NCBI GenBank assembly: GCA_021811385.1
Contig: JAJZPC010000020.1
Coordinates: 1-39,304, forward strand
Length of the DNA stretch: 39,304 bases
Source of the DNA: Deltaproteobacteria bacterium
Lineage (GTDB): Bacteria > Desulfobacterota > Desulfobulbia > Desulfobulbales > Desulfurivibrionaceae
Reading direction: 5' to 3'
The translations under genes were made by a program, and so were the position numbers. The notes under the pieces were generated by a model. The model ran no database searches, was not told the origin of the DNA, and saw only the letters and a program-made list of their open reading frames with translations. How positions within the stretch are numbered: position 1 is the stretch's first letter; each line of letters begins with the position of its first letter. Positions 22,789 through 37,236 of this stretch are shown here, in pieces.

Positions 22789-23718
22789 TTGAACGCCCAA
22801 TACCGTTATTTTTTTCTGCCCTTGACCATATTGCTTTTTCTTGTAGCCGGTTGCGGCATGATGACAGAGGCGACAGACACCCAGGAAAAAGCGCCCGCGG
22901 GCGAGGGGACCAGGGTCACCGGCGCGGAACTGATCGAACTGCTCTCCGACAACACCATTTCCATCCAGGAATATGGCGACACCGCGACCATCGAGATGTA
23001 TGCCAATGGCAAAATGTACGCGGTGAAAAGCAAGACGGAAAAGAATGAGGGGGTATGGTCAACGGAAGACGACAGGCTCTGCCTCCAGTTCAAACGTTGG
23101 GGCTTTGGCGAGCAGATCTGCTACACGGTGTTCCGTAAGGGCGAGGAGTATCACCTCTATACCTCCACCGGGATAAAATCGAGCTATTTCACCATAACAA
23201 AAGGCGTCAAACGGGGGCAGGCAGGCAAAAGCGCGGCAGGCGCCCAGAAACAGCCAAGCAGGCGGGCCACCGCCACCACCTCCCCCGATGTGGTAATCGA
23301 AGAGCCGGCCGCGGCGCCACCCGTATCCACGCCGACAATCCAGGAAACGTACCAGACCTCCAGCCCTCAGGCAGCCAGCCGGGATCTGGGCATGATCTAC
23401 CGCGGCATGAGCCAGAACTGCCCGGGCTGTAACCTGCAGGGCGCCAATCTGGCCGAAGCCAGCCTGATGCGGGCCAACCTGGCCGGGGCCAATCTGAGCA
23501 ACGCCACCATGGTCAAGGCCAATCTCAAATGGGCAAACCTGAAGGGCGCCAATCTGACGAGCGCGGATCTTTCCGGGGCAAACCTGGCCGGGGCCGACCT
23601 GGCCGGAGCCAATCTGGAACGGGCCGATCTGACCGGGGCCAACCTGGAACAGGCCAATCTCCGGGGGGCCACGATCACCGGCGCCATCGGCCTTGACCTG
23701 AAAAAGGCCATCCGGTAA
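22789..23718 (+). CDS. Pentapeptide-repeat lipoprotein
   Basis: 309 aa. The signal peptide ends in lipobox LVAGC, so it should be a lipoprotein. About residues 45-145 form a domain with GVWSTEDDRLCLQFKRWGFGE and a second Cys shortly after, a pattern like DUF995-type secreted domains. A low-complexity linker (Pro/Thr/Ala-rich) leads to NCPGCNLQGANL and about 15 A(D/N)LxX pentapeptide repeats forming a right-handed quadrilateral helix to the C-terminus. The two Cys before the repeats form a CxxC. The start is chosen as TTG 22789 because GAGGAGAG lies just upstream; the GTG at 22768 has no such site and would extend a charged stretch before the signal. Confidence 0.8.
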   Translation: MNAQYRYFFLPLTILLFLVAGCGMMTEATDTQEKAPAGEGTRVTGAELIELLSDNTISIQEYGDTATIEMYANGKMYAVKSKTEKNEGVWSTEDDRLCLQFKRWGFGEQICYTVFRKGEEYHLYTSTGIKSSYFTITKGVKRGQAGKSAAGAQKQPSRRATATTSPDVVIEEPAAAPPVSTPTIQETYQTSSPQAASRDLGMIYRGMSQNCPGCNLQGANLAEASLMRANLAGANLSNATMVKANLKWANLKGANLTSADLSGANLAGADLAGANLERADLTGANLEQANLRGATITGAIGLDLKKAIR

Positions 23719-23745
23719 CAGCCCGCATCATCTCCCGCACGAAAG

Positions 23746-23784
23746 GCAACCCGGTTTGGCTTTAGCCGGGTTGCTTCTTTTCTC
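23746..23784 (+). terminator. Intrinsic terminator after pentapeptide lipoprotein
   Basis: GCAACCCGG, an 11-base loop, CCGGGTTGC and a T-rich tail (TTCTTTTCTC). It lies in the gap between convergent genes. Confidence 0.85.
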
Positions 23785-23884
23785 TCTCCGGCCCCGAAGG
23801 GTCACTATCCCACACCTGCACTTTCGCGGAAAGAATGAAGAACAACCCCTTCTTCCCCGTTTCCTGTGTCTCTGCTGCCCGTCC

Positions 23885-25543
23885 TTATCGCGGCACAGAC
23901 TGAATAATTCCCGGCTTGCTCCCCTTTTCCTTCGGGGAAGAATCGTTCGGCGTGGGGCAGTGATGCGCATCGCACAGGATATCCAGCTGGGGATCATAGA
24001 GTTCGGTGCGAACCTCCATGCTCCCGAGGAGGGTGTGGAACAGGTTGTCCTGGGAGAGTTCCCGCCCGGCCTGTTGCCTGAGTATATCCCTATTGATTTC
24101 AAATCCCGCGCCAAACCACATGATGGCCCCGATATGCGTCTGGGCCTTCGGGGCCAGCAGGTAGGGCATGCCATGCAGGTAGACCCCCAATTCACCGAGG
24201 GATTCGCCATGGTCGCTCATGTAGATCATGGCGGTTTCGAAGCGCTTATCATTTTGTTTGAGCAGGGTAATGACCTTGCTCAAGAAGTAGTCCGTATAGA
24301 GGATGGCGTTATCGTAAGCATTACCTATCTCCTCGGTGCTGCACTTATCGAGTTCATTCGTCCGGCAGGTCGGGGTAAAGCGTTCAAAGGCCTTGGGATA
24401 TCTCTTGTAATAGGCTGGGCCATGGTTGCCCATCTGATGGAGGACGATCAGGATATCCCCCTTCTTATGCGCATCGATATACTCCTGCAGGCCGACCAAC
24501 ATCCCCTCGTCCCGGCACTCCACATCGCAAATTGTATTCCGGACAGGATCCTGATAATCCTCATAGGGAACACGCAGGGCCACGCCCTTGGAGTCCGAGT
24601 TGTTGTCCCGCCAGAGGACGTTGACCCCGGCCCGCTGGACGATGTCTAGGATGTTTTCCCTGGCCTTGGCTTTCTTGTTGCTGAACCCGGAATGGGTCAA
24701 ATTGGAAAACATGCAGGGAACCGAGGTAGCGGTCGAAGTATCGCAGGAACTCACCTGGGGATAAAAGATCACATCCTCCTGGCTGAGCAGGGGATTGGTC
24801 ATGCGTCCATAGCCGTTCAGGGAAAAACGATCAGCCCTGGCCGCCTCGCCCACCACCAGAATAATCAACTCCCTATCCTCGTCCGCAGCCGGGATGTTAG
24901 CGTCGGTGCCGATGGCCTGAACCGTCACTGCGGAGTCACCCCAGGTTTTTTTCGCATATTTATACACAGAATACAGGGCGTAGGTCGGATTGCTGTAATA
25001 GCGCAACTCCGCATGCTCCCGAAAAAAGGAGGCGTAAAAACGGCTAAACAAAAAGAGCGGGATCAAGATAAGAAGCAGGGAGATCCCGATCATCTTGAGC
25101 CGTGCCACAACAGCCTGACGCAAGGGCGGACGCTGAAGCGGCAACAGACACACCGCCAGAACCGGCACGATCCCGAGAAAAAAGAGATACAGAAACAGCT
25201 TGAGGGAGAAGAGGTCCACCGCTTCCCGCATGTTGGTCTGCAGGACATTTTGAACCATGATGTAATCAATGACCACGCTGTAGTTGTTCATGAAATAGCT
25301 GTTGGTTGCGGCCAACAGGAGCAAAACAACCAGGAGCGGCTTGGTGGTGAAGCGTGAGGCGAGCAAACTGAGGAGCAAGGCGATGACCCCGATCAACCCA
25401 AGGGCCAGGGAGACGAGAAAGAGCAGGTTATTGCGCTCGGCAAGGGGATAAACCCCTATGACGTTTTGAAAAAAGGCGATATTGCCGGAGAGAACCAAGA
25501 AAATGGCCGTGGCCATGATCAGCTTGTTGGTGGTCACTTGCAT
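23885..25543 (-). CDS. eptA: Phosphoethanolamine transferase (EptA-type)
   Basis: 552 aa, about five N-terminal transmembrane helices to residue 170, then a periplasmic sulfatase-fold catalytic domain. Metal ligand E233 lies in LVVGEAARADRF; the acceptor Thr lies in the SCDTSTATSVPC segment (266-277); the later metal site is YMSDHGESLGE. Enzymes of this family move phosphoethanolamine from phosphatidylethanolamine to lipid A or inner-core sugars, adding positive charge and polymyxin resistance. Multiple Cys in the soluble part match the family's disulfides. Start ATG 25543 follows GGAG at a suitable distance. It has no adjacent two-component system; a lone gene. Confidence 0.92.
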   Translation of the reverse strand: MQVTTNKLIMATAIFLVLSGNIAFFQNVIGVYPLAERNNLLFLVSLALGLIGVIALLLSLLASRFTTKPLLVVLLLLAATNSYFMNNYSVVIDYIMVQNVLQTNMREAVDLFSLKLFLYLFFLGIVPVLAVCLLPLQRPPLRQAVVARLKMIGISLLLILIPLFLFSRFYASFFREHAELRYYSNPTYALYSVYKYAKKTWGDSAVTVQAIGTDANIPAADEDRELIILVVGEAARADRFSLNGYGRMTNPLLSQEDVIFYPQVSSCDTSTATSVPCMFSNLTHSGFSNKKAKARENILDIVQRAGVNVLWRDNNSDSKGVALRVPYEDYQDPVRNTICDVECRDEGMLVGLQEYIDAHKKGDILIVLHQMGNHGPAYYKRYPKAFERFTPTCRTNELDKCSTEEIGNAYDNAILYTDYFLSKVITLLKQNDKRFETAMIYMSDHGESLGELGVYLHGMPYLLAPKAQTHIGAIMWFGAGFEINRDILRQQAGRELSQDNLFHTLLGSMEVRTELYDPQLDILCDAHHCPTPNDSSPKEKGSKPGIIQSVPR

Positions 25544-28813: not shown

Positions 28814-28970
28814 CACCGGGGCAGGGCCAGCCGCCCTTTCCATTTTGCCCTGTCCGGGGGCGCGGACGCAACCTGCTTGCTCCCCGCCGGACCTTGGCGT
28901 ATACTATCGGAGTGGAGTTGCTGATCCGCTCCGAAACCATATTGCCAAAGGTCCGACCGAGCCTGCCATC

Positions 28971-30203
28971 ATGATCAAGAAGGTTGCCATCGAAGAGCTC
29001 CAGCCCGGCATGCATATCGAGCGTTTTGATTGCGGTTGGCTGGATCACCCCTTTATCTTCAACAGCAAACGGATCAAGAGCGAGGGAGAGATAGAACGCC
29101 TCAAAGACTGGGGCGTCACCCACGTTTACATTGAGGACGGCCACAACCCACCCCCGGTCCCGGTCAAAATCGAACGGGAAAGACCTCCGCCGCCGGTGGT
29201 GGCGTTCGAGCACATCGTCACCCCGCAGACCGCGCGGGTTGATCGCGAGCTCAGACATATCCCGATCCGCCATGAGATTGTCCGGGCTCAAAAGGTACGG
29301 CAGCGGGCCAGCCAGGCCGCGAAGAACATCCTGGCCGACGTGCGGGCCGGAAAAAAGATCCAGACCAGGGAGGCCGAGACCGCGGTAGGCGAGCTGGACA
29401 ACTCCATCTGCCACAACAAGGACGCGTTGTTCCTGCTCATGCGCTTGCGCAAGAAGGATGAATACACCTTCGACCATTCGGTGAGCGTGGGCGTGCTGCT
29501 CCTGGCTTTCTGCCGGGCCATGGGCTTTGACCAGGAAACCACCCGGACCATCGGGTTGGGCGGACTGTTGCATGACGTGGGCAAGATGGCCGTGCCCCTG
29601 TCCATCCTCAACAAACCAGGCTCCCTCAACGACGACGAGTTTAAAAAAATCCAACAGCATGTCATCTATTGCAAGGAAATCCTGGCCACCACCCACAACA
29701 TCTCCCTGCCCGTGGCCCAGATCGCCATGGAACACCATGAACGGTTCGACGGCTCCGGCTATCCCCACGGCCTGAGCGGGGAGTCCATCAGCCTGGGCGG
29801 GCAGATGGCTGCCATTACCGATGTCTTCGACGCCCTGACCTCGGACCGCTGCTACCGCACCGGCATCGACCAGGTCGAGGTGCTGCGCAAGCTCTACGGC
29901 TGGAGCCGCAACCATTTCAACGAAGAACTGGTGCACCGCTTCATCCGGTGCATCGGCGTCTATCCGGCCGGCACCCTGGTTCAGCTGGAAAGCGGTCTGC
30001 TCGGCGTGGTGGTGGAATCGACCGACAACCTGCTGCGCCCGGTGGTGCGCCTCATCTACGACACCAGGCACGACTGGGCGGTCAGCCAAAAGGACATCGA
30101 TCTCTCCAAGCCCCATGGCAAGGGCGGCGAGGATCGGATCATCGGCTATGAGTCCGCCAAACGCTGGCGGATCAATCCCCTCAAGGTTCTCGGCATCACC
30201 TGA
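28971..30203 (+). CDS. HD-GYP cyclic-di-GMP phosphodiesterase with DUF3391 N-terminus
   Basis: 410 aa. The N-terminal 60-130 residues match DUF3391 (MIKKVAIEELQPGM, WLDHPFIFNS). The HD-GYP domain has the conserved residues: H169 (FDHS), HD at 201-202 (GLLHDVGK), H230, HH at 255-256, and the GYP motif in HHERFDGSGYP. It should hydrolyse cyclic di-GMP to pGpG/GMP. The frame is open upstream, but the conserved N-terminal domain begins exactly at ATG 28971. The ribosome site is weak. Confidence 0.93.
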   Translation: MIKKVAIEELQPGMHIERFDCGWLDHPFIFNSKRIKSEGEIERLKDWGVTHVYIEDGHNPPPVPVKIERERPPPPVVAFEHIVTPQTARVDRELRHIPIRHEIVRAQKVRQRASQAAKNILADVRAGKKIQTREAETAVGELDNSICHNKDALFLLMRLRKKDEYTFDHSVSVGVLLLAFCRAMGFDQETTRTIGLGGLLHDVGKMAVPLSILNKPGSLNDDEFKKIQQHVIYCKEILATTHNISLPVAQIAMEHHERFDGSGYPHGLSGESISLGGQMAAITDVFDALTSDRCYRTGIDQVEVLRKLYGWSRNHFNEELVHRFIRCIGVYPAGTLVQLESGLLGVVVESTDNLLRPVVRLIYDTRHDWAVSQKDIDLSKPHGKGGEDRIIGYESAKRWRINPLKVLGIT

Positions 30204-30216
30204 TCCCCCGCCGCAA

Positions 30217-30257
30217 TACCGACCTTCCCCCATTGCGTTTTACCGACTTCCCCCCAT
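30217..30257. repeat. 17-bp direct repeat pair
   Basis: TACCGACCTTCCCCCAT (30217-30233) and TACCGACTTCCCCCCAT (30241-30257), 24 bp apart start to start, about 80 bp before a small ORF. The spacing suggests a two-site DNA-binding element, or chance. Confidence 0.4.
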
Positions 30258-30336
30258 ATATTTCCCGGCCCGGTTCGGATACAGTGCCAGAAATTTGGAA
30301 GCACGCGCCTTGTCTCAACGGAAAAGGGGAACCCAT

Positions 30337-30684
30337 ATGAACCATTGCGATCTTGCGGAAAACTGCTTTTTCTTCGCGGTGCGCGAAGAAGGGAGGGAGA
30401 TGCGCGAATACTTGACGGGACTCTACTGCACTGGGAACTTCAGCGATTGCGCACGGTACAGGGCAACGATGGATATGGGACAGAGACCGGTGCCGGACGA
30501 CATCTTCCCGAACGAGGATATTTTCGTAAGCCTTTTCGCCTGGGCCTTCAACCAACGGCAAATCCCGGTCAGCAAACAGCGCCGGACCCGGTGCCCTGGC
30601 AGGCTGCCAGTTTCCGCGCCAGAAAAGACCGCAGCATCTTCCGGACATCTTCCTCCAACCCGTCAAACTCACAACCAACGCTGA
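30337..30684 (+). CDS. Small Cys-containing protein with antisense overlap
   Basis: 115 aa. The start MNHCDLAENCFFF, then YCTGNFSDCARYRATMD and DIFPNEDIF, resembles a small Desulfobacterota family (CDxAExCxFF ... C..xxxxxCARY) whose function is unknown; four Cys could bind metal. GGGGA precedes ATG 30337. From about residue 78 the sequence turns Arg/Pro/Ser-rich and runs 116 bases into the convergent PilZ gene, so this tail is probably not native and the original stop may have been lost. Confidence 0.6.
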   Translation: MNHCDLAENCFFFAVREEGREMREYLTGLYCTGNFSDCARYRATMDMGQRPVPDDIFPNEDIFVSLFAWAFNQRQIPVSKQRRTRCPGRLPVSAPEKTAASSGHLPPTRQTHNQR

Positions 30685-30979
30685 CATTGCTCACCATCGG
30701 ATGGTCCAGCACCCAGCGCACGGTAAGCGGCATGGCCCTGTCGCACAAGAAATCATCCCCTTCGCTAAGCCGGGCAAGGACAAGCTGACGCCCAGGCTCC
30801 AGGGAATTCCACTCCTCCCGTTTCAAGATGAAGTGGATCCCCCCAAGACTCAGGTCAAGAATCAGGGCGGAAAAGGAAAACTGCCCGAAATCCGGAAAAA
30901 CGAAAACCCCGCGGATATTCTCTCCCGGGGAAAAGTACACCCGCGTTTCTTTTCTTTTCTCATGAAAACCGCCGGCCAT
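30569..30979 (-). CDS. PilZ-domain protein
   Basis: 136 aa. KRKETRVYF supplies the N-terminal basic RxxxR-type motif, and ILDLSLGGIHF the D/NxSxxG motif; together they bind cyclic di-GMP in PilZ proteins. It starts at the second ATG (30979), spaced 5-6 bases from AGGGAG; a TTG further upstream is unlikely. Neighbours include HD-GYP and GGDEF-EAL genes, so it is a likely local c-di-GMP receptor. Confidence 0.85.
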   Translation of the reverse strand: MAGGFHEKRKETRVYFSPGENIRGVFVFPDFGQFSFSALILDLSLGGIHFILKREEWNSLEPGRQLVLARLSEGDDFLCDRAMPLTVRWVLDHPMVSNVSVGCEFDGLEEDVRKMLRSFLARKLAACQGTGSGAVC

Positions 30980-31117
30980 CATCTTCTCCCTCGCGGCCCG
31001 GGCAGATATACCTCCCAACCCCTGGCCATCATTACCTAATTTTCCCCTCTGCTTTCATTTTTATATCTGGGGCCGCTTTTTTTGGCAAGCCCTACCTCGA
31101 ACAGATGGTCTTAGGAA

Positions 31118-31146
31118 TTGACAAAGAGAGAGCCCACGGCTATCTG
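31118..31146 (+). promoter_or_regulatory. Sigma-70 promoter candidate for cupin operon
   Basis: TTGACA, 17 bp, TATCTG, 44 bp before the cupin ATG. AACAGAT (31100-31106) and ATCTGTT (31142-31148) form an inverted repeat that brackets -35 and overlaps -10, possibly an operator. Confidence 0.6.
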
Positions 31147-31189
31147 TTAGCAACAGCCACCCCCGCAAACATCGACCAAGGATTTGCCC

Positions 31190-31456
31190 ATGCCCATCAC
31201 CATCGAAAAGCTTTCCCCGAAAAAACGCGAGGCCCTGCGCCTCGACGAATGGCCGATCTGGCAGTGTGAGCCCTCGACCTTTCCCTGGCATTACGATCAG
31301 GAAGAGTCCTGTTATATCCTGGAAGGCGAGATCACCGTAACCACCGCCGACCAGACCGTGCACATCCTCCCCGGCGATTACGTGACCTTTCCCCAGGGGC
31401 TGGATTGCCAGTGGCAGGTGCACAGCGCGGTGCGCAAGCATTACCTGTTCCGCTGA
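31190..31456 (+). CDS. Cupin (DUF861/EutQ-like) protein
   Basis: 88 aa. DQEESCYILEGEITV and LPGDYVTFPQGLDCQW with a C-terminal VRKHYLF are the hallmark of the DUF861/EutQ cupin subfamily. Likely a small-molecule-binding barrel of unknown ligand. ATG 31190 follows AAGGATTTGCCC; an in-frame TTG two codons upstream is less likely. It is the first gene of a probable operon with a sugar kinase and a DOMON-like gene. Confidence 0.85.
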   Translation: MPITIEKLSPKKREALRLDEWPIWQCEPSTFPWHYDQEESCYILEGEITVTTADQTVHILPGDYVTFPQGLDCQWQVHSAVRKHYLFR

Positions 31457-31478
31457 AACGGATCTTCCGGCAAGCCCC

Positions 31479-32576
31479 GTGATCGATCCTGCCGCCATCG
31501 CCCGACAGTTCGCCTTTCCCGGCGAGGTTCTCACCGTGCGCGAGTACGGGTCCGGCAATGTGAACGACACCTATCTGGTGCGGGTCGCGGACACCGAGGC
31601 CGTCCGCGACTTCATCCTGCAACGCCTCAATCCCCATGTATTTCCGCACCCCGAACGGATCATGCACAACCTCCGGGTGCTCGACGACCATGTCCGACCC
31701 AAATTGCCGGCGCAGCCAAACCGCCGCTGGGAGCTGCCACGGATCATCCCCACCCGGACCGGCGCTGATTATCACCGGGATCCGGACAGCGCCTTGTGGC
31801 GGGCCCAGAGCTTTATCGCCGACACAGAGAGTTTCGATGCCATCGCCGACGTTTCCCAGGCCGAAGAGGCAGGGAGGGGGCTGGGGTTCTTCCATGGGCT
31901 GATCCATGACCTGCCCGTGCATCTGCTGCACGACACCCTGCCAGGCTTCCATGTCACCCCCGGCTATCTGGCCCGGTATACGGCGCTGGCCACAGCCCCC
32001 CCCAGGCCCGACCCGTCACCGGAAGCGCTTTTCTGCCACCGCTTCATCGCCGAGCGAAAAGAAGCGGCCGGGGTGCTCGAAGCCGCGCACCTGCGGGGTG
32101 AACTGCCCGCCTGCCCCATCCACGGCGACCCCAAGCTGGCCAATATCCTCTTTGCCCGCGATACCGGCCAGGCGATCAGCCTCATCGATCTGGACACGGT
32201 CAAGCCCGGACTGCTCCATTACGACATCGGCGACTGCCTCCGCTCCTGCTGCAACCCGGCCGGGGAAGACGCGAACCCGGCCAAGGTTTCCTTCAACCTC
32301 GCCTGCTGCGCCGCCATCCTCCGGGGATACCTGCCCCAGGTCGCCCCGTTTTTTTCCGTGGCCGACTATCACTACATCTATGACGCCGTCCGGATCATCG
32401 CCTTTGAGCTTGGCTTGCGCTTTTTCTCCGACCATCTGGCCGGCGATCTCTATTTCCGGATCAAAAGACCGGGCCATAACCTGCGCCGGGCAATGGTCCA
32501 GTTCGCCCTCTGTCGCAGCGTCGAAGCGCAGGAGGCGGAGATCAGAGCCATTGTCAGGGATCTCCAAAAACCATGA
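31479..32576 (+). CDS. N-acetylhexosamine 1-kinase-like (aminoglycoside phosphotransferase fold)
   Basis: 365 aa, the length of bifidobacterial NahK. Matches to NahK run along the whole chain: YGSGNVNDTYLV, ILQRLNPHVFPHPERIMHN, IHGDPKLANILF (catalytic loop with Asp and Asn), LIDLDTVKPG (metal-binding Asp), LRFFSDHLAGDLYF. NahK phosphorylates the anomeric carbon of GlcNAc/GalNAc. The start is GTG 31479, 22 bases after the cupin stop. The ATGA overlap with the next gene couples it to the DOMON-like protein. A lacto-N-biose phosphorylase, the usual NahK partner, is absent, so substrate and pathway are open. Confidence 0.85.
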   Translation: MIDPAAIARQFAFPGEVLTVREYGSGNVNDTYLVRVADTEAVRDFILQRLNPHVFPHPERIMHNLRVLDDHVRPKLPAQPNRRWELPRIIPTRTGADYHRDPDSALWRAQSFIADTESFDAIADVSQAEEAGRGLGFFHGLIHDLPVHLLHDTLPGFHVTPGYLARYTALATAPPRPDPSPEALFCHRFIAERKEAAGVLEAAHLRGELPACPIHGDPKLANILFARDTGQAISLIDLDTVKPGLLHYDIGDCLRSCCNPAGEDANPAKVSFNLACCAAILRGYLPQVAPFFSVADYHYIYDAVRIIAFELGLRFFSDHLAGDLYFRIKRPGHNLRRAMVQFALCRSVEAQEAEIRAIVRDLQKP

Positions 32577-33100
32577 CCACCTTCAGCCTGCATCCCTTTC
32601 CAGGCCAGGATCCCGGCGGGATGACCGTCCAGGGCGGTATCGAGCGCACGGGCCGGATCATCGTGCTTTCCTTTCTCCTGCAAGGGAACCTGCGCGATCT
32701 CGTTTTGCCGCCGCCAACACCCGATCGGCAACGGTGCGACAACCTCTGGCAATCCACCTGCCTTGAGATGTTCTGGGCTGAAGAGGGACGAAAAAATTAT
32801 TGGGAACTGAACCTTGCCCCGAGCGGGGGTTGGAATGTTTACGCTTTTACCGATTACCGCACAGACATGCGCCGGGAAGAGCGGATTGCCGAACCGCTTG
32901 TCACAATGCAGGCCACACCGGACACCTTCTCCCTGACCACCGAAGTGGAGATCGGCAATCTCCGGACACGTCCCCCCCTCCGGGTTGGAATCAGCGGCGT
33001 TCTCCAACATCGGGATAACCGGCTGAGCTACTGGGCTCTTGCCCACCCGGAAGAGAGACCCGACTTTCACGCGCCCCATGCCTTTCTCCTGCGGGTATGA
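32573..33100 (+). CDS. DOMON-like domain protein
   Basis: 175 aa, predicted all-beta. LWQSTCLEMFWAE, YWELNLAPSGGWNVYAF and DYRTDMRR are characteristic of a DOMON-like family of uncharacterised cytoplasmic proteins related to CBM9 carbohydrate-binding folds. There is no signal peptide, so it acts in the cytoplasm. It overlaps the kinase gene by 4 bases (ATGA). A sugar-binding role beside a sugar kinase is inferred. Confidence 0.8.
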   Translation: MTTFSLHPFPGQDPGGMTVQGGIERTGRIIVLSFLLQGNLRDLVLPPPTPDRQRCDNLWQSTCLEMFWAEEGRKNYWELNLAPSGGWNVYAFTDYRTDMRREERIAEPLVTMQATPDTFSLTTEVEIGNLRTRPPLRVGISGVLQHRDNRLSYWALAHPEERPDFHAPHAFLLRV

Positions 33101-33176
33101 TTGCCTCCCCGCTCATCTTGCGCCCGCCGCCTTTTTGCTTGTTCTTTCCACAAACCGGATTACCATGTATATGAAT

Positions 33177-33196
33177 GTTTAGAAGCATGTCTAAAC
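33177..33196. promoter_or_regulatory. Inverted repeat upstream of GGDEF-EAL gene
   Basis: GTTTAGA, 6 bp, TCTAAAC: perfect 7-bp arms in a short AT-rich patch 120 bp before the gene start. Operator or hairpin; its role is not known. Confidence 0.35.
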
Positions 33197-33317
33197 TTCC
33201 TTTGACCGTCGTATCCTTTTTCCGGCATGGACCATTGCCGGCCGCGACGGGGCGGCAACGCTCCTCCTGGCTGCCGGGACAGACAAACGAAGCCAACAAC
33301 CGGGACATGCCCAATAC

Positions 33318-34934
33318 ATGATCCAACATATTTTTTCCATTTCCATGGTCGTTATCGGCATCATCCTGCTGATCAGCGCCCTGAATCCGGTTCACCTGAT
33401 TCGCCGTTTCGACAAGGAAAACCGCACCGGCTGGAATACCCTGTTCATTCTCATCCATTTTTTCGTCCTCGGCTACACCACCTTCTGCTACTTCCTTTTC
33501 CGCCCCCGGATCACCTTCGGCGATTTTGTCGTCGCCCTCATCCTGTTCGGCGGCAGCATCTTTGTGGTTATCGTTGTCCGCCTGAGCCGATCCTCCATCG
33601 ACAACATCAACAGAATCGCCGCCCTGGAACGGCACAACGCCCTCCATGACGACCTCACCGGCCTGCCCAACAGGGCCCTTCTGCTGGAACGCATCAACCA
33701 GTTGATCCTGCATGCCAAACGGGATTTGCAACCACTGGCGATTCTGGTCATGGATCTGAACCGCTTCAAGGAAATAAACGACGCCCTGGGCCATCACTAC
33801 GGCGACTTTCTCCTGCAGAAGGTGGCGGAGCGGCTGCAGGAAGTCATCCGCGAGTCCGATACCCTGGCCCGCTTGGGCGGCGATGAATTCTCCGTGGCCT
33901 TGGCCGCGGACGCGGAACAGGCCAAGATCGTTTCCCAAAAAATTTCCGAAACCCTGCAACAGCCGTTCATCATTGAAGGGCATAGCCTCAACATCGGCAT
34001 CAGTATCGGCATCGCCATCTATCCTGCGCATGGAATCGATTGCGACACCCTGCTCCAGCACGCCGATGTCGCCATGTATTCGGCCAAGAAAACCGAAACC
34101 CACTACGCGCTTTACGACGATTCCCAGGACCAGTTCACCCTCAACCGCTTGATGCTGCTGACCGATCTCCGCGAAGCGGTGCGGAAGGAAGAACACCTGA
34201 CTCTCCATTTCCAGCCCAAGATCGACGCCAAACACAGCCGGATTCATGGCGTGGAGGCGTTGCTCCGCTGGAACCATCCGGAACTGGGCATGATCGCGCC
34301 GGACCAGTTCATCCCTCTGGCGGAACAGGGCGGCATCATTCGCTCCTTGAGCAAATGGGTGCTCAATGCCGCGCTCGCCCAGCGGGCGGCATGGCGCGAT
34401 GCGGGGCTCGACATCCCCGTTTCCGTCAATCTTTCGATCAAGAACCTGCAGGACATCTCCGTTCCCTTGCTGATCAAGGATTTGCTCAAGAAATATCAGC
34501 TGGCGCCGTCCGATCTGATGCTGGAAATCACCGAAACCAGCATGATGCTCGACCCGGACCGGACCTACGAAGTCATCTCGAACCTCCACGCCCTTGGCGT
34601 GCAGCTGTCAATCGATGATTTCGGCACCGGCTATTCATCCCTGGCCTACCTCAAGCAGCTGCCCGCCGAAGAACTGAAGATCGACAAATCATTTGTCAGA
34701 AACATGCTCAAGGACGACAACGACGAAGTCATTGTCCGGGCCACCATCGATCTGGCCAAAAACATGGGGCTTGAAGTAATCGCCGAAGGGGTGGAATCGG
34801 CGGAGATAATGACCAGGCTGCAGGAGCTGGATTGCGACCTGGCGCAGGGGTATTACATCTGCAAGCCCCTGCCGGCAAAAGAACTGGAGGAATGGTTGAG
34901 GACTTCCCCTTACTCGGTTCCAGGCTCCCCCTGA
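33318..34934 (+). CDS. Membrane GGDEF-EAL c-di-GMP bifunctional enzyme
   Basis: 538 aa. Three transmembrane helices (about 5-25, 40-62, 68-90) precede a GGDEF domain with GGDEF intact (187-191) and an RxxD I-site (R178, D181) exactly 5 residues before it. The EAL domain has EAL (313-315), VNLS (N371), LEITE (E403, E406), DDFGTG (433-438), K454, EGVE (490-493) and QGY (510-512). All residues for both c-di-GMP synthesis and hydrolysis are present, so activity direction cannot be read from sequence. There is no PAS domain. The start is ATG 33318; the ribosome site is weak. Confidence 0.93.
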   Translation: MIQHIFSISMVVIGIILLISALNPVHLIRRFDKENRTGWNTLFILIHFFVLGYTTFCYFLFRPRITFGDFVVALILFGGSIFVVIVVRLSRSSIDNINRIAALERHNALHDDLTGLPNRALLLERINQLILHAKRDLQPLAILVMDLNRFKEINDALGHHYGDFLLQKVAERLQEVIRESDTLARLGGDEFSVALAADAEQAKIVSQKISETLQQPFIIEGHSLNIGISIGIAIYPAHGIDCDTLLQHADVAMYSAKKTETHYALYDDSQDQFTLNRLMLLTDLREAVRKEEHLTLHFQPKIDAKHSRIHGVEALLRWNHPELGMIAPDQFIPLAEQGGIIRSLSKWVLNAALAQRAAWRDAGLDIPVSVNLSIKNLQDISVPLLIKDLLKKYQLAPSDLMLEITETSMMLDPDRTYEVISNLHALGVQLSIDDFGTGYSSLAYLKQLPAEELKIDKSFVRNMLKDDNDEVIVRATIDLAKNMGLEVIAEGVESAEIMTRLQELDCDLAQGYYICKPLPAKELEEWLRTSPYSVPGSP

Positions 34935-35040
34935 TTACGGCCGGGAAGCTCCACGCCTTTCTCCTCCGGAAACACCTCCCTCCCCCCTGCCCCGCAAATC
35001 TCCATGGCGATGCGCCGTCCAGGTCCGTAAAAAACTTGCC

Positions 35041-36519
35041 ATGCGCCCGAGCGGTATATATCCTAAGCTGACAGCCCGCAATTTCAGCCAGGAGCAGACA
35101 GACACGGTGAGCACGGAGATTCCCAAAACCATCGGCCGGTACCGCGTTGTGCGACAAATCGGCCTGGGCGCCATGGGCGAGGTCTATCTTGCCCTTGACG
35201 AACTCATCCACCGCAAGGTCGCCGTCAAATGCATGCGGGTGGACCGCTGCAAAAACGAGCAGAAACGGCAGAAAGCCATGGAGTCCTTTCTGCACGAGGC
35301 CCGCATTGCCGGAAACCTCGACCACAGCCACATCGCGGCGGTGTACGATATCGGGGTGCAAGACAACGCCCCTTACATCGTCATGGAGTATATCGAAGGC
35401 GGCAACATCAAGGAGCTGATCCGCGGCAAGGCCCCTTTCCCCATCGAGGAAAAACTCAGCCTCATCGCCATGGTGGCCCGCGCCCTGCATTTTGCCCATA
35501 AGCGGGGCATCCTCCACCGGGATATCAAGCCTGCCAACATCATGATCCTGAAGCAGAGCCGCCTGCCCAAGATCACCGACTTCGGCATCGCCCGGGTGCT
35601 GGACACCGCTTCCTTCGGCAACATCGAAGGCAATATCGACGAGGCGGGCTTGATCCCAGGCACGCCGTTGTATATGTCGCCGGAGCAAATCCGGGGCGAG
35701 GAGCTGGACACGCGCAGCGACATCTTCTCCCTGGGGGTGCTCGCCTACGAATGGCTCAGCGGCGAAAAGCCCTTTGCCGGGCAGGATCTCAATGGTCGCC
35801 TGCAATCCGTGCTCACGGACACGCCGAAACCGCTCACCGATTTTCCCGGCATCGATCCCGAGATCAACAGCATCGTCATGCGGGCCCTGGCCAAGCCAAA
35901 GGGGGAGCGCTACCAGAGCGCCGACGAGTTCGGGGACACCCTGGAGCTCTATCTCAACTCCATGGAAAAGAAAAAAAGCGGGGAAAAAACGAGTTTTTCC
36001 TTTGATAAAAAGGAGATCGTCGAGCGGTTGCGGCAGCGCTACCCCTTTTTTGCCGATTTCAGCGAAGAGGAGCTGTACGAGCTGTTCCGCGCCTCCTGCA
36101 AGGAGGAGTTTGCCATGGGCGACTACCTTCTCCGCGAAGGCGCCTCGGGCGCCAAGATGTACATCATCATTTCCGGCGCCGTTATCGTGCTCACCGAAAC
36201 AGAAGGCAAGCGGGTGGAGCTGGAAACCCTGCGGGATGGCAGCTGCGTGGGAGAGATGTCGATGATCGACCACATGCCGCGCTCCGCCTCGGTGGTGGCG
36301 TTCAAGAAAACCGTGGCCCTGGCCTTGAATGAAACGGTCCTGCGCCACAACAACCCCAAGCTCTGCCTCAAGCTCTACCGGAACCTGGCCACCACCCTGT
36401 CGGAACGGCTGCGGGCCAGCGAAGCCAAGTATCTGACCCTGCTGGCCACCCACCATGCCTGGGGAAAAGAATGGCGTGGAGTCAACAGGGCAGGGGTCGA
36501 GGCTAGGCAGAACGACTAG
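35041..36519 (+). CDS. Ser/Thr protein kinase fused to C-terminal cyclic-nucleotide-binding domain
   Basis: 492 aa. The Hanks kinase (31-305) is complete: Gly loop GLGAMGEVYL, VAVK (K63), HRD (159-161), DFG (180-182), and SPEQ in the activation segment. After a Lys-rich linker (309-322) comes a CNB domain (about 340-440) with the phosphate-binding cassette: G404-E405 then P413-R414-S-A, so both the ribose-binding Glu and phosphate-binding Arg are retained. The kinase is not membrane-anchored. It probably phosphorylates targets in response to cAMP/cGMP or a related nucleotide. The start is uncertain: ATG 35041 has no ribosome site, and GTG 35107 follows AGGAG with a long spacer; both precede the kinase domain. 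Confidence 0.9.
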   Translation: MRPSGIYPKLTARNFSQEQTDTVSTEIPKTIGRYRVVRQIGLGAMGEVYLALDELIHRKVAVKCMRVDRCKNEQKRQKAMESFLHEARIAGNLDHSHIAAVYDIGVQDNAPYIVMEYIEGGNIKELIRGKAPFPIEEKLSLIAMVARALHFAHKRGILHRDIKPANIMILKQSRLPKITDFGIARVLDTASFGNIEGNIDEAGLIPGTPLYMSPEQIRGEELDTRSDIFSLGVLAYEWLSGEKPFAGQDLNGRLQSVLTDTPKPLTDFPGIDPEINSIVMRALAKPKGERYQSADEFGDTLELYLNSMEKKKSGEKTSFSFDKKEIVERLRQRYPFFADFSEEELYELFRASCKEEFAMGDYLLREGASGAKMYIIISGAVIVLTETEGKRVELETLRDGSCVGEMSMIDHMPRSASVVAFKKTVALALNETVLRHNNPKLCLKLYRNLATTLSERLRASEAKYLTLLATHHAWGKEWRGVNRAGVEARQND

Positions 36520-36592
36520 GGGAAAAATATGCCTGGCCGTTCCAACGGCAGAAATCAGGCGCGAGCCAACAACTTACCGCGCCAGCCCACCC

Positions 36593-36621
36593 TTGACAGT
36601 ATCCCACAAAAATTCTACACT
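36593..36621 (+). promoter_or_regulatory. Near-consensus sigma-70 promoter for VapBC-type module
   Basis: TTGACA, 17 bp, TACACT. The -35 is perfect and the spacer optimal. It lies 35 bp before the antitoxin ATG. Confidence 0.75.
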
Positions 36622-36655
36622 AATCATATCGATCTACAAAAAGGAGAATACAACC

Positions 36656-36862
36656 ATGCAAGCAACCATCTCAAGCAAATATCAGGTAGTCATCCCCAAG
36701 CCGGTCAGAGAGCATCTGCATCTTAAACCGCAACAGAAGCTCACAATCCTGGAAAAGGACAGGATGCTCATCCTCGTGCCCCAGGTCTCTCTCGATGAGT
36801 TGCGCGGCATCGCCGTCGGCGCGGCAACCGATGGCTTCCGGGAAAAAAAGGACCGCTTCTGA
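36656..36862 (+). CDS. AbrB/SpoVT-type antitoxin (VapB-like)
   Basis: 68 aa. ISSKYQVVIPKPVREHLHLKPQQKL is the swapped-hairpin AbrB DNA-binding fold, and the C-terminal tail (TDGFREKKDRF) is what would wrap into the toxin. It represses its own promoter in such modules. GGAG precedes ATG 36656 with proper spacing; the longer upstream frame is rejected. The stop overlaps the toxin ATG by one base (TGATG). Confidence 0.88.
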   Translation: MQATISSKYQVVIPKPVREHLHLKPQQKLTILEKDRMLILVPQVSLDELRGIAVGAATDGFREKKDRF

Positions 36863-37236
36863 TGATCATCGTCGATTCCTGCGGCTGGCTGGAGTGGTTC
36901 ACCGACGGCGTGCTGGCCGACAGTTACAAAAAATATCTCGCGGACCCGGACAACCTCCTGGTGCCTGCCATCGTCCTCTACGAGGTCTACAAGGTTCTCA
37001 AGCGGGGGGCCGGGGAAGAAAAGGCGCTGCTCGCCGCCGGGTATATGCGAAGCTCCCGGCTAATTCCGTTTGACGATACGCTTGCGCTCGCCGCTGCGGA
37101 TATCGCTCTGCAAAAAAAACTCGCCATGGCTGATGCCATCATTGTGGCGGTATCCAAAGCGTATAATTGCAGGATCATCTCCTCGGATGCCGACCTGAAA
37201 GATTTCGACAATGTGGACTATATCCAGAAAACATAA
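36862..37236 (+). CDS. PIN-domain toxin (VapC-like)
   Basis: 124 aa. The PIN acidic quartet is present: D5 (IIVDSCGW), E41 (LYEVYK), D91 (MADAII) and D109 (SSDADL). By family knowledge it is a Mg-dependent ribonuclease cutting tRNA or rRNA, neutralised by the adjacent antitoxin. It starts with the last base of the antitoxin stop codon. No regulatory gene lies between. Confidence 0.9.
   Translation: MIIVDSCGWLEWFTDGVLADSYKKYLADPDNLLVPAIVLYEVYKVLKRGAGEEKALLAAGYMRSSRLIPFDDTLALAAADIALQKKLAMADAIIVAVSKAYNCRIISSDADLKDFDNVDYIQKT

Follow-up and report, generated by a model that had tools for sequence, protein, structure and literature searches.

The locus described here raises the question of which sugar is handled by a kinase that resembles bifidobacterial N-acetylhexosamine 1-kinase (NahK), and of what is contributed by the small protein of carbohydrate-binding fold that is encoded with it. 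The locus lies in a stretch of 39,304 nucleotides (the window, meaning the whole stretch of DNA that was analysed) from a 2.6 Mb draft genome (G000, contig 33; 75% complete), the closest named relatives of which are uncultured Desulfobulbaceae/Deltaproteobacteria. On the + strand, a cupin gene is followed by the kinase gene and then by the CBM9/DOMON-like gene, with these features:

31118..31146, + strand: promoter-like element TTGACA-17-TATCTG upstream of the cupin gene (TTGACA perfect, second hexamer weak)
31190..31456, + strand: small single-domain cupin, Cupin_3/EutQ-like, TM1112 type (PF05899 profile match)
31479 (GTG)..32576, + strand: NahK-type anomeric sugar kinase of APH fold, 365 aa (profile, structure-sequence match, motifs H215-G-D-P-K and D237-L-D-T)
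32573..32576, + strand: ATGA overlap of the kinase stop and the CBM9-like start (sequence; -4 spacing)
32573..33100, + strand: CBM9/DOMON-like protein, predicted to be cytoplasmic, 175 aa (fold model, alignment)

The kinase was matched by the Pfam profile of the APH family (PF01636, E 1.5e-19), and residues 7-363 of its 365 could be aligned with NahK of Bifidobacterium (4wh1/4ocj; 357 residues, E 2.8e-47, 31% identity), its closest solved relative. An earlier sequence-only reading of this DNA had called the kinase NahK-like along its length, and the description holds. When the window kinase was aligned with NahK and with 19 relatives drawn from several phyla, the HxD motif, the DLDT motif and a C-terminal E-G-RF-D-L-G-YF-NL-R signature proved to be kept throughout, the invariant residues being H215, D217, K219, N222, D237-T240, D249, D252 and R255, and, in the C-terminal part, E310, G312, R314, D318, G322, Y325, N334 and R337. 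Full-length homology, the catalytic motifs and the C-terminal signature place the protein among the NahK-type kinases; neither NCBIfam AmgK model matches it at E up to 10, and it is not assigned to AmgK. According to an excerpt of PMC6264712, characterised NahKs act on GlcNAc and GalNAc, and also accept mannose and several derivatives.

The likeness to the bifidobacterial enzyme lies in this full-length match and in the catalytic and C-terminal motifs common to both, whereas the window kinase differs in being paired with a CBM9-like gene and in having no lacto-N-biose phosphorylase, GalT or GalE among its immediate neighbours in the window. Kinship to NahK, as judged from the alignment, is claimed for the kinase itself and not for the lacto-N-biose/galacto-N-biose pathway. 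The kinase had also been described as an orphan, which is true locally, where phosphorylase and epimerase neighbours are missing, but not of the genome, which encodes an AmgK-like/MurU-like pair and the exo-N-acetylmuramidase NamZ elsewhere. In two draft genomes, G014 (L008/L117) and G138 (L073), the kinase gene is interrupted and continues in a second frame, either through mutation or through an error in sequencing, and the partner gene reads through.

For the partner protein, the CBM9_2 profile (PF16011) gave E 0.031 and 14.4 bits against a curated cut-off of 25, a score at which membership in this family is not assigned; 46 of the 68 members of the CBM9-like alignment are matched by the same profile (best E 7e-6). 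An AlphaFold2 model based on the 68 sequences (mean pLDDT 96, pTM 0.91) was compared with solved structures, among which 4jpq, a putative carbohydrate-binding protein of Bacteroides uniformis, was the best match (Z 16.0, 166 of 175 residues). Three CBM9 entries gave Z 12.8-13.3 and rmsd 3.0-3.1 over 149 of 175 residues, and the CBM9 of Thermotoga maritima Xyn10A (1i82; Z 13.0, rmsd 3.0, 149 residues) assigns the model to the CBM9 beta-sandwich fold, at an identity to 1i82 and 4jpq of 7-15%. DOMON-type subunits came next in the structural ranking (2ivf chain C, Z 9.7). Antibody-like folds, with Z of about 8 or less, were set aside.

The protein appears to have no signal peptide, because the modelled chain opens directly with a strand. 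The view of it as a cytoplasmic DOMON-like protein of CBM9-like fold, put forward from the letters alone, is thereby borne out by the model; 1i82 and 4jpq share the fold, yet the window protein stands alone, is predicted to be cytoplasmic and does not form a module within a secreted enzyme. Thirteen residues (R54, L58, W59, C63, E65, Y76, E78, W87, R96, A155, H158, F165 and H166) are invariant in the 68 sequences, and W154 is conserved in at least 90% of them. CBM9 modules are described, in an excerpt of PMC8280721, as holding the reducing end of a sugar between two aromatics, which are W71 and W175 in the Thermotoga module; by position and conservation, W59 and W154 are candidates for such a clamp. 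In one relative, the full-length CBM9-like gene is followed, about 3.5 kb downstream, by a further fragment that corresponds to its C-terminal part (L025, G011:C11:50596-50724).

The association of the two genes is not confined to the window. Among 58 relatives, the CBM9-like gene was found in 24, the kinase in 49 and both in 23, and the two adjoin in 19 of these 23; for 395 sampled genomes of the phylum, the corresponding figures are 32, 51 and 13, with 11 of the 13 adjoining. Such adjacency exceeds chance in both samples. All co-occurrence counts are inflated by phylogenetic kinship. Dependence of the kinase on the CBM9-like gene is not universal, since 26 of the 49 kinase-bearing relatives have no detected copy of the latter. 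The best 80 of 558 named loci, whose proportions lean towards close relatives because only these 80 were taken, include 60 with the kinase directly upstream of the CBM9-like gene, spread over Desulfobacterota, Nitrospirota and many Cyanobacteria; the remaining 20 comprise one with a kinase at 2.2 kb, six with NamZ adjoining and 13 with neither. An absence of any conserved neighbourhood, which had been named as the finding that would tell against the sequence-only reading, is thus not what is seen.

The start of the CBM9-like gene lies within the kinase stop, as had been noted, and the same 4-base overlap occurs in 48 of the 60 paired named loci, where stop-to-start distances use the start codon nearest to the kinase stop and short distances are thus favoured. 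From this spacing, the overlap is read as probable translational coupling. The distances of the kinase and its partner correlate (r 0.91 over 53 pairs, reached in 0 of 2000 permutations), which mostly reflects shared descent. Clustering of the open reading frames of the 80 loci revealed no third neighbour that recurs widely beyond the pair. The kinase and the CBM9-like gene are a real and widely conserved two-gene module, in which known folds meet in an unstudied combination: no study of the pair could be found in the literature searched, from which subscription papers are largely absent. The same order and 4-base overlap across Cyanobacteria, Nitrospirota and Desulfobacterota imply that the pair should matter to the cell. 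Nostoc is among its carriers and is close to Anabaena, a model for cell-wall remodelling that is reported, in an excerpt of PMC10936207, to be without NamZ and NagZ.

The cupin is not part of this wider unit. It is matched by Cupin_3 (PF05899, E 5.4e-27) and, over nearly its whole length, by Thermotoga TM1112 (E 3e-27), and the kinase and the DOMON-like gene do follow it, as had been stated, after a gap of 22 bases; its linkage to the kinase is seen in two genera only, the window's own and one neighbour (g5). As to whether the order cupin, kinase and DOMON-like gene is conserved, a check that had been proposed, the answer is positive far beyond the genus for the last two genes but limited to these two genera for the first. 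A similar division applies to the near-consensus promoter that had been proposed. The TTGACA at 31118 is perfect and is kept in g5 as well as by the majority of aligned relatives within the genus (it was not seen in L036/L116, where nearby bases are masked, or in L046), but the second hexamer, TATCTG, 17 bases after it, agrees with the consensus at 3 of 6 positions, and a consensus promoter scan listed no promoter upstream of the cupin.

Where the kinase is missing beside the CBM9-like gene, other neighbours recur. NamZ is its direct neighbour in 11 of the 30 phylum loci examined (two of the 32 CBM9-like matches were left out), nine of them in one family (f41) with NamZ first and two others with NamZ second; the six such cases among the best 80 named loci include Brevundimonas, Phenylobacterium and Tepidiphilus. 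Pfam confirmed the identity of two of the NamZ genes, recognising both NamZ domains in each, and the rest were identified by similarity to those two. An AmiA-like amidase (PF07313), which presumably acts as an amidase on MurNAc bonds, directly follows the CBM9-like gene in L080, L081 and L084, and one open reading frame comes between them in L083, all in one family (f73). Because nine of the 11 NamZ loci belong to f41 and all AmiA-like loci to f73, these arrangements represent few independent events. In a longer stretch of the L080 genome (L207, 6312-11115), the CBM9-like gene, the AmiA-like amidase, a GT2 glycosyltransferase, a DUF4922 protein and SpoIID form one run, which resembles a cluster for cell-wall recycling and in which the DUF4922 protein is uncharacterised. 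DUF4388, HAD hydrolase, DnaJ and PhoU-like neighbours look incidental; in L129 the HAD protein that adjoins the CBM9-like gene may be MupP-like, a single case.

The frequent position of NamZ or an AmiA-like amidase beside a CBM9-like gene that has no kinase points to salvage of peptidoglycan sugars. By hand counts uncorrected for kinship, NamZ occurs in 43 of 51 kinase-bearing phylum genomes versus 178 of 344 others, and in 28 of 32 genomes with the CBM9-like gene versus 193 of 363 others, in a phylum where it is common anyway (221 of 395). A salvage or recycling route with a sugar-binding accessory protein had been suggested from the window alone; the CBM9 fold and these neighbours strengthen that suggestion, which overall is partly supported.

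The amino-sugar recycling genes of the window's genome and its relatives bear on which sugar this might be. NamZ is present in 52 of the 58 relatives, including the window's genome (C45), and its context there (L199) and in four relatives (L195-L198) revealed no link to the kinase pair. An AmgK-like gene was found in 56 of the 58, with AmgK as the best curated match (E 5e-23, below the cut-off). In the window's genome it lies at C47:22039-23097 beside a MurU-like nucleotidyltransferase gene (23336-23980), with lpxA/fabZ-like genes recognised nearby from reading of the open reading frames, and NamZ and a MurU-like gene share one cluster in G037, G042, G051 and G055. In four relatives (L214-L217), NamZ stands within what, from the open reading frames, is an lpxD-fabZ-lpxA-lpxI-like cluster with a MurU-like gene. 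No genome passes the NCBIfam cut-off for MurU, not even the Caulobacter control, although C. crescentus is reported, in an excerpt of PMC13046382, to have a MurU pathway that works. NagA and AnmK, both detected in control genomes, were each found in 0 of the 58 relatives, so the usual GlcNAc-6-phosphate route looks absent from them.

These observations lead to a tentative proposal, to which we give a chance just short of even: the kinase would be a C1 kinase of an amino sugar from peptidoglycan turnover, most likely GlcNAc, whose product would go to GlmU, and the CBM9-like protein would be an accessory that binds reducing ends. The substrate, the fate of the product and the part played by the CBM9-like protein are what we infer here, from what the analysis establishes on gene anatomy, conservation, fold, partner genes and the gene content of relatives. 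Peptidoglycan turnover would release the amino sugar in the cytoplasm, the kinase would phosphorylate its anomeric (C1) hydroxyl, and GlcNAc-1-phosphate could be converted directly to UDP-GlcNAc by GlmU. The co-translated CBM9-like protein may hold the free sugar, or a short peptidoglycan saccharide, at its reducing end between two aromatic residues and assist the kinase by delivery, anomer selection or control. MurNAc would be handled in parallel by NamZ and the AmgK-like/MurU-like pair; in the window's organism it probably goes through AmgK and MurU. Since that pair and NamZ are encoded elsewhere in the genome, the window kinase is probably a second, GlcNAc-directed anomeric kinase and not the MurNAc kinase. 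No NagA route is visible for free GlcNAc, a gap that would be closed by a NahK-type kinase supplying GlmU. Salvage of cell-wall amino sugars is most likely what the module serves.

The GlcNAc reading is argued for the window's order only, because a NagA match is present in 23 of 24 pair-bearing genomes outside it (22 cyanobacteria, one Nitrospiraceae and one Desulforhabdus), 17 of them over the cut-off; in cyanobacteria the sugar could equally be MurNAc or another one. An AmgK-like gene occurs in 2 of these 24 genomes, and the 22 that carry the pair without it favour a different assignment, namely that the kinase is a MurNAc (or MurNAc/GlcNAc) 1-kinase of MurU-type salvage and the CBM9-like protein binds MurNAc or GlcNAc-MurNAc. 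The NamZ and AmiA-like partners, named for action on MurNAc bonds (for NamZ, according to a published reference), agree with it. We nevertheless consider it unlikely: an AmgK-like gene is already present in the window's genome and in 55 further relatives, the copy on C47 matches both AmgK models and the window kinase neither, and NahK, the closest solved relative, works on GlcNAc and GalNAc. AmgK-MurU of Pseudomonas/Caulobacter resembles the window system in using an APH-fold C1 kinase for cell-wall sugars, but the window's organism has its own such pair at another locus, and no nucleotidyltransferase was found adjoining the kinase and the CBM9-like gene.

It is quite doubtful that the pair is unconnected with peptidoglycan and salvages some other sugar, for instance mannose, GalNAc or glucose derived from storage or envelope glycans. 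The acceptance of mannose and several derivatives by NahKs (excerpt of PMC6264712) would fit, as would the lack of a conserved third gene and the origin of the solved CBM9 modules, which are parts of xylanases and bind plant-glycan sugars (excerpt of PMC8280721). This reading leaves aside, however, that the recurrent alternative neighbours of the CBM9-like gene are NamZ and the AmiA-like amidase, NamZ occurring on either side of it and in several groups of bacteria. It is improbable that the CBM9-like protein has enzymatic activity of its own, for example as an aldose 1-epimerase (mutarotase) supplying the anomer for the kinase. Invariant charged or polar residues (R54, E65, E78, R96, H158 and H166) do stand on a small single-domain fold, and the partner reaction is presumably anomer-sensitive, but the closest solved folds are those of binding modules, namely CBM9 and DOMON-type subunits, and no catalytic precedent is known to us in such a fold.

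A broader extension of the GlcNAc proposal, possible but rather less likely than the proposal itself, is that stand-alone cytoplasmic CBM9 proteins form an unrecognised class of cell-wall-recycling factors, which would hold the reducing ends of released sugars, in some bacteria in company with a C1 kinase and in others with NamZ or an AmiA-like amidase; in the window's order, the pair would replace the NagK/NagA branch by a route from GlcNAc through GlcNAc-1-phosphate to UDP-GlcNAc. The module suggests a testable idea of how GlcNAc could be reused in bacteria without NagA and AnmK, and a role for a cytoplasmic CBM9 protein.

As to its surroundings, the pair is flanked by signalling genes across window positions 28893-36519. 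One of these encodes an HD-domain protein that also carries DUF3391, and a PilZ gene (30569-31018) runs on the opposite strand; 33318-34934 codes for a GGDEF-EAL protein, and 35041-36519 for a protein kinase that contains a cyclic-nucleotide-binding domain. Further on (36455-37236), a gene with a MazE-type antitoxin domain precedes a PIN-domain gene, the start of which falls on the final base of the antitoxin stop codon; the two are a probable toxin-antitoxin pair.
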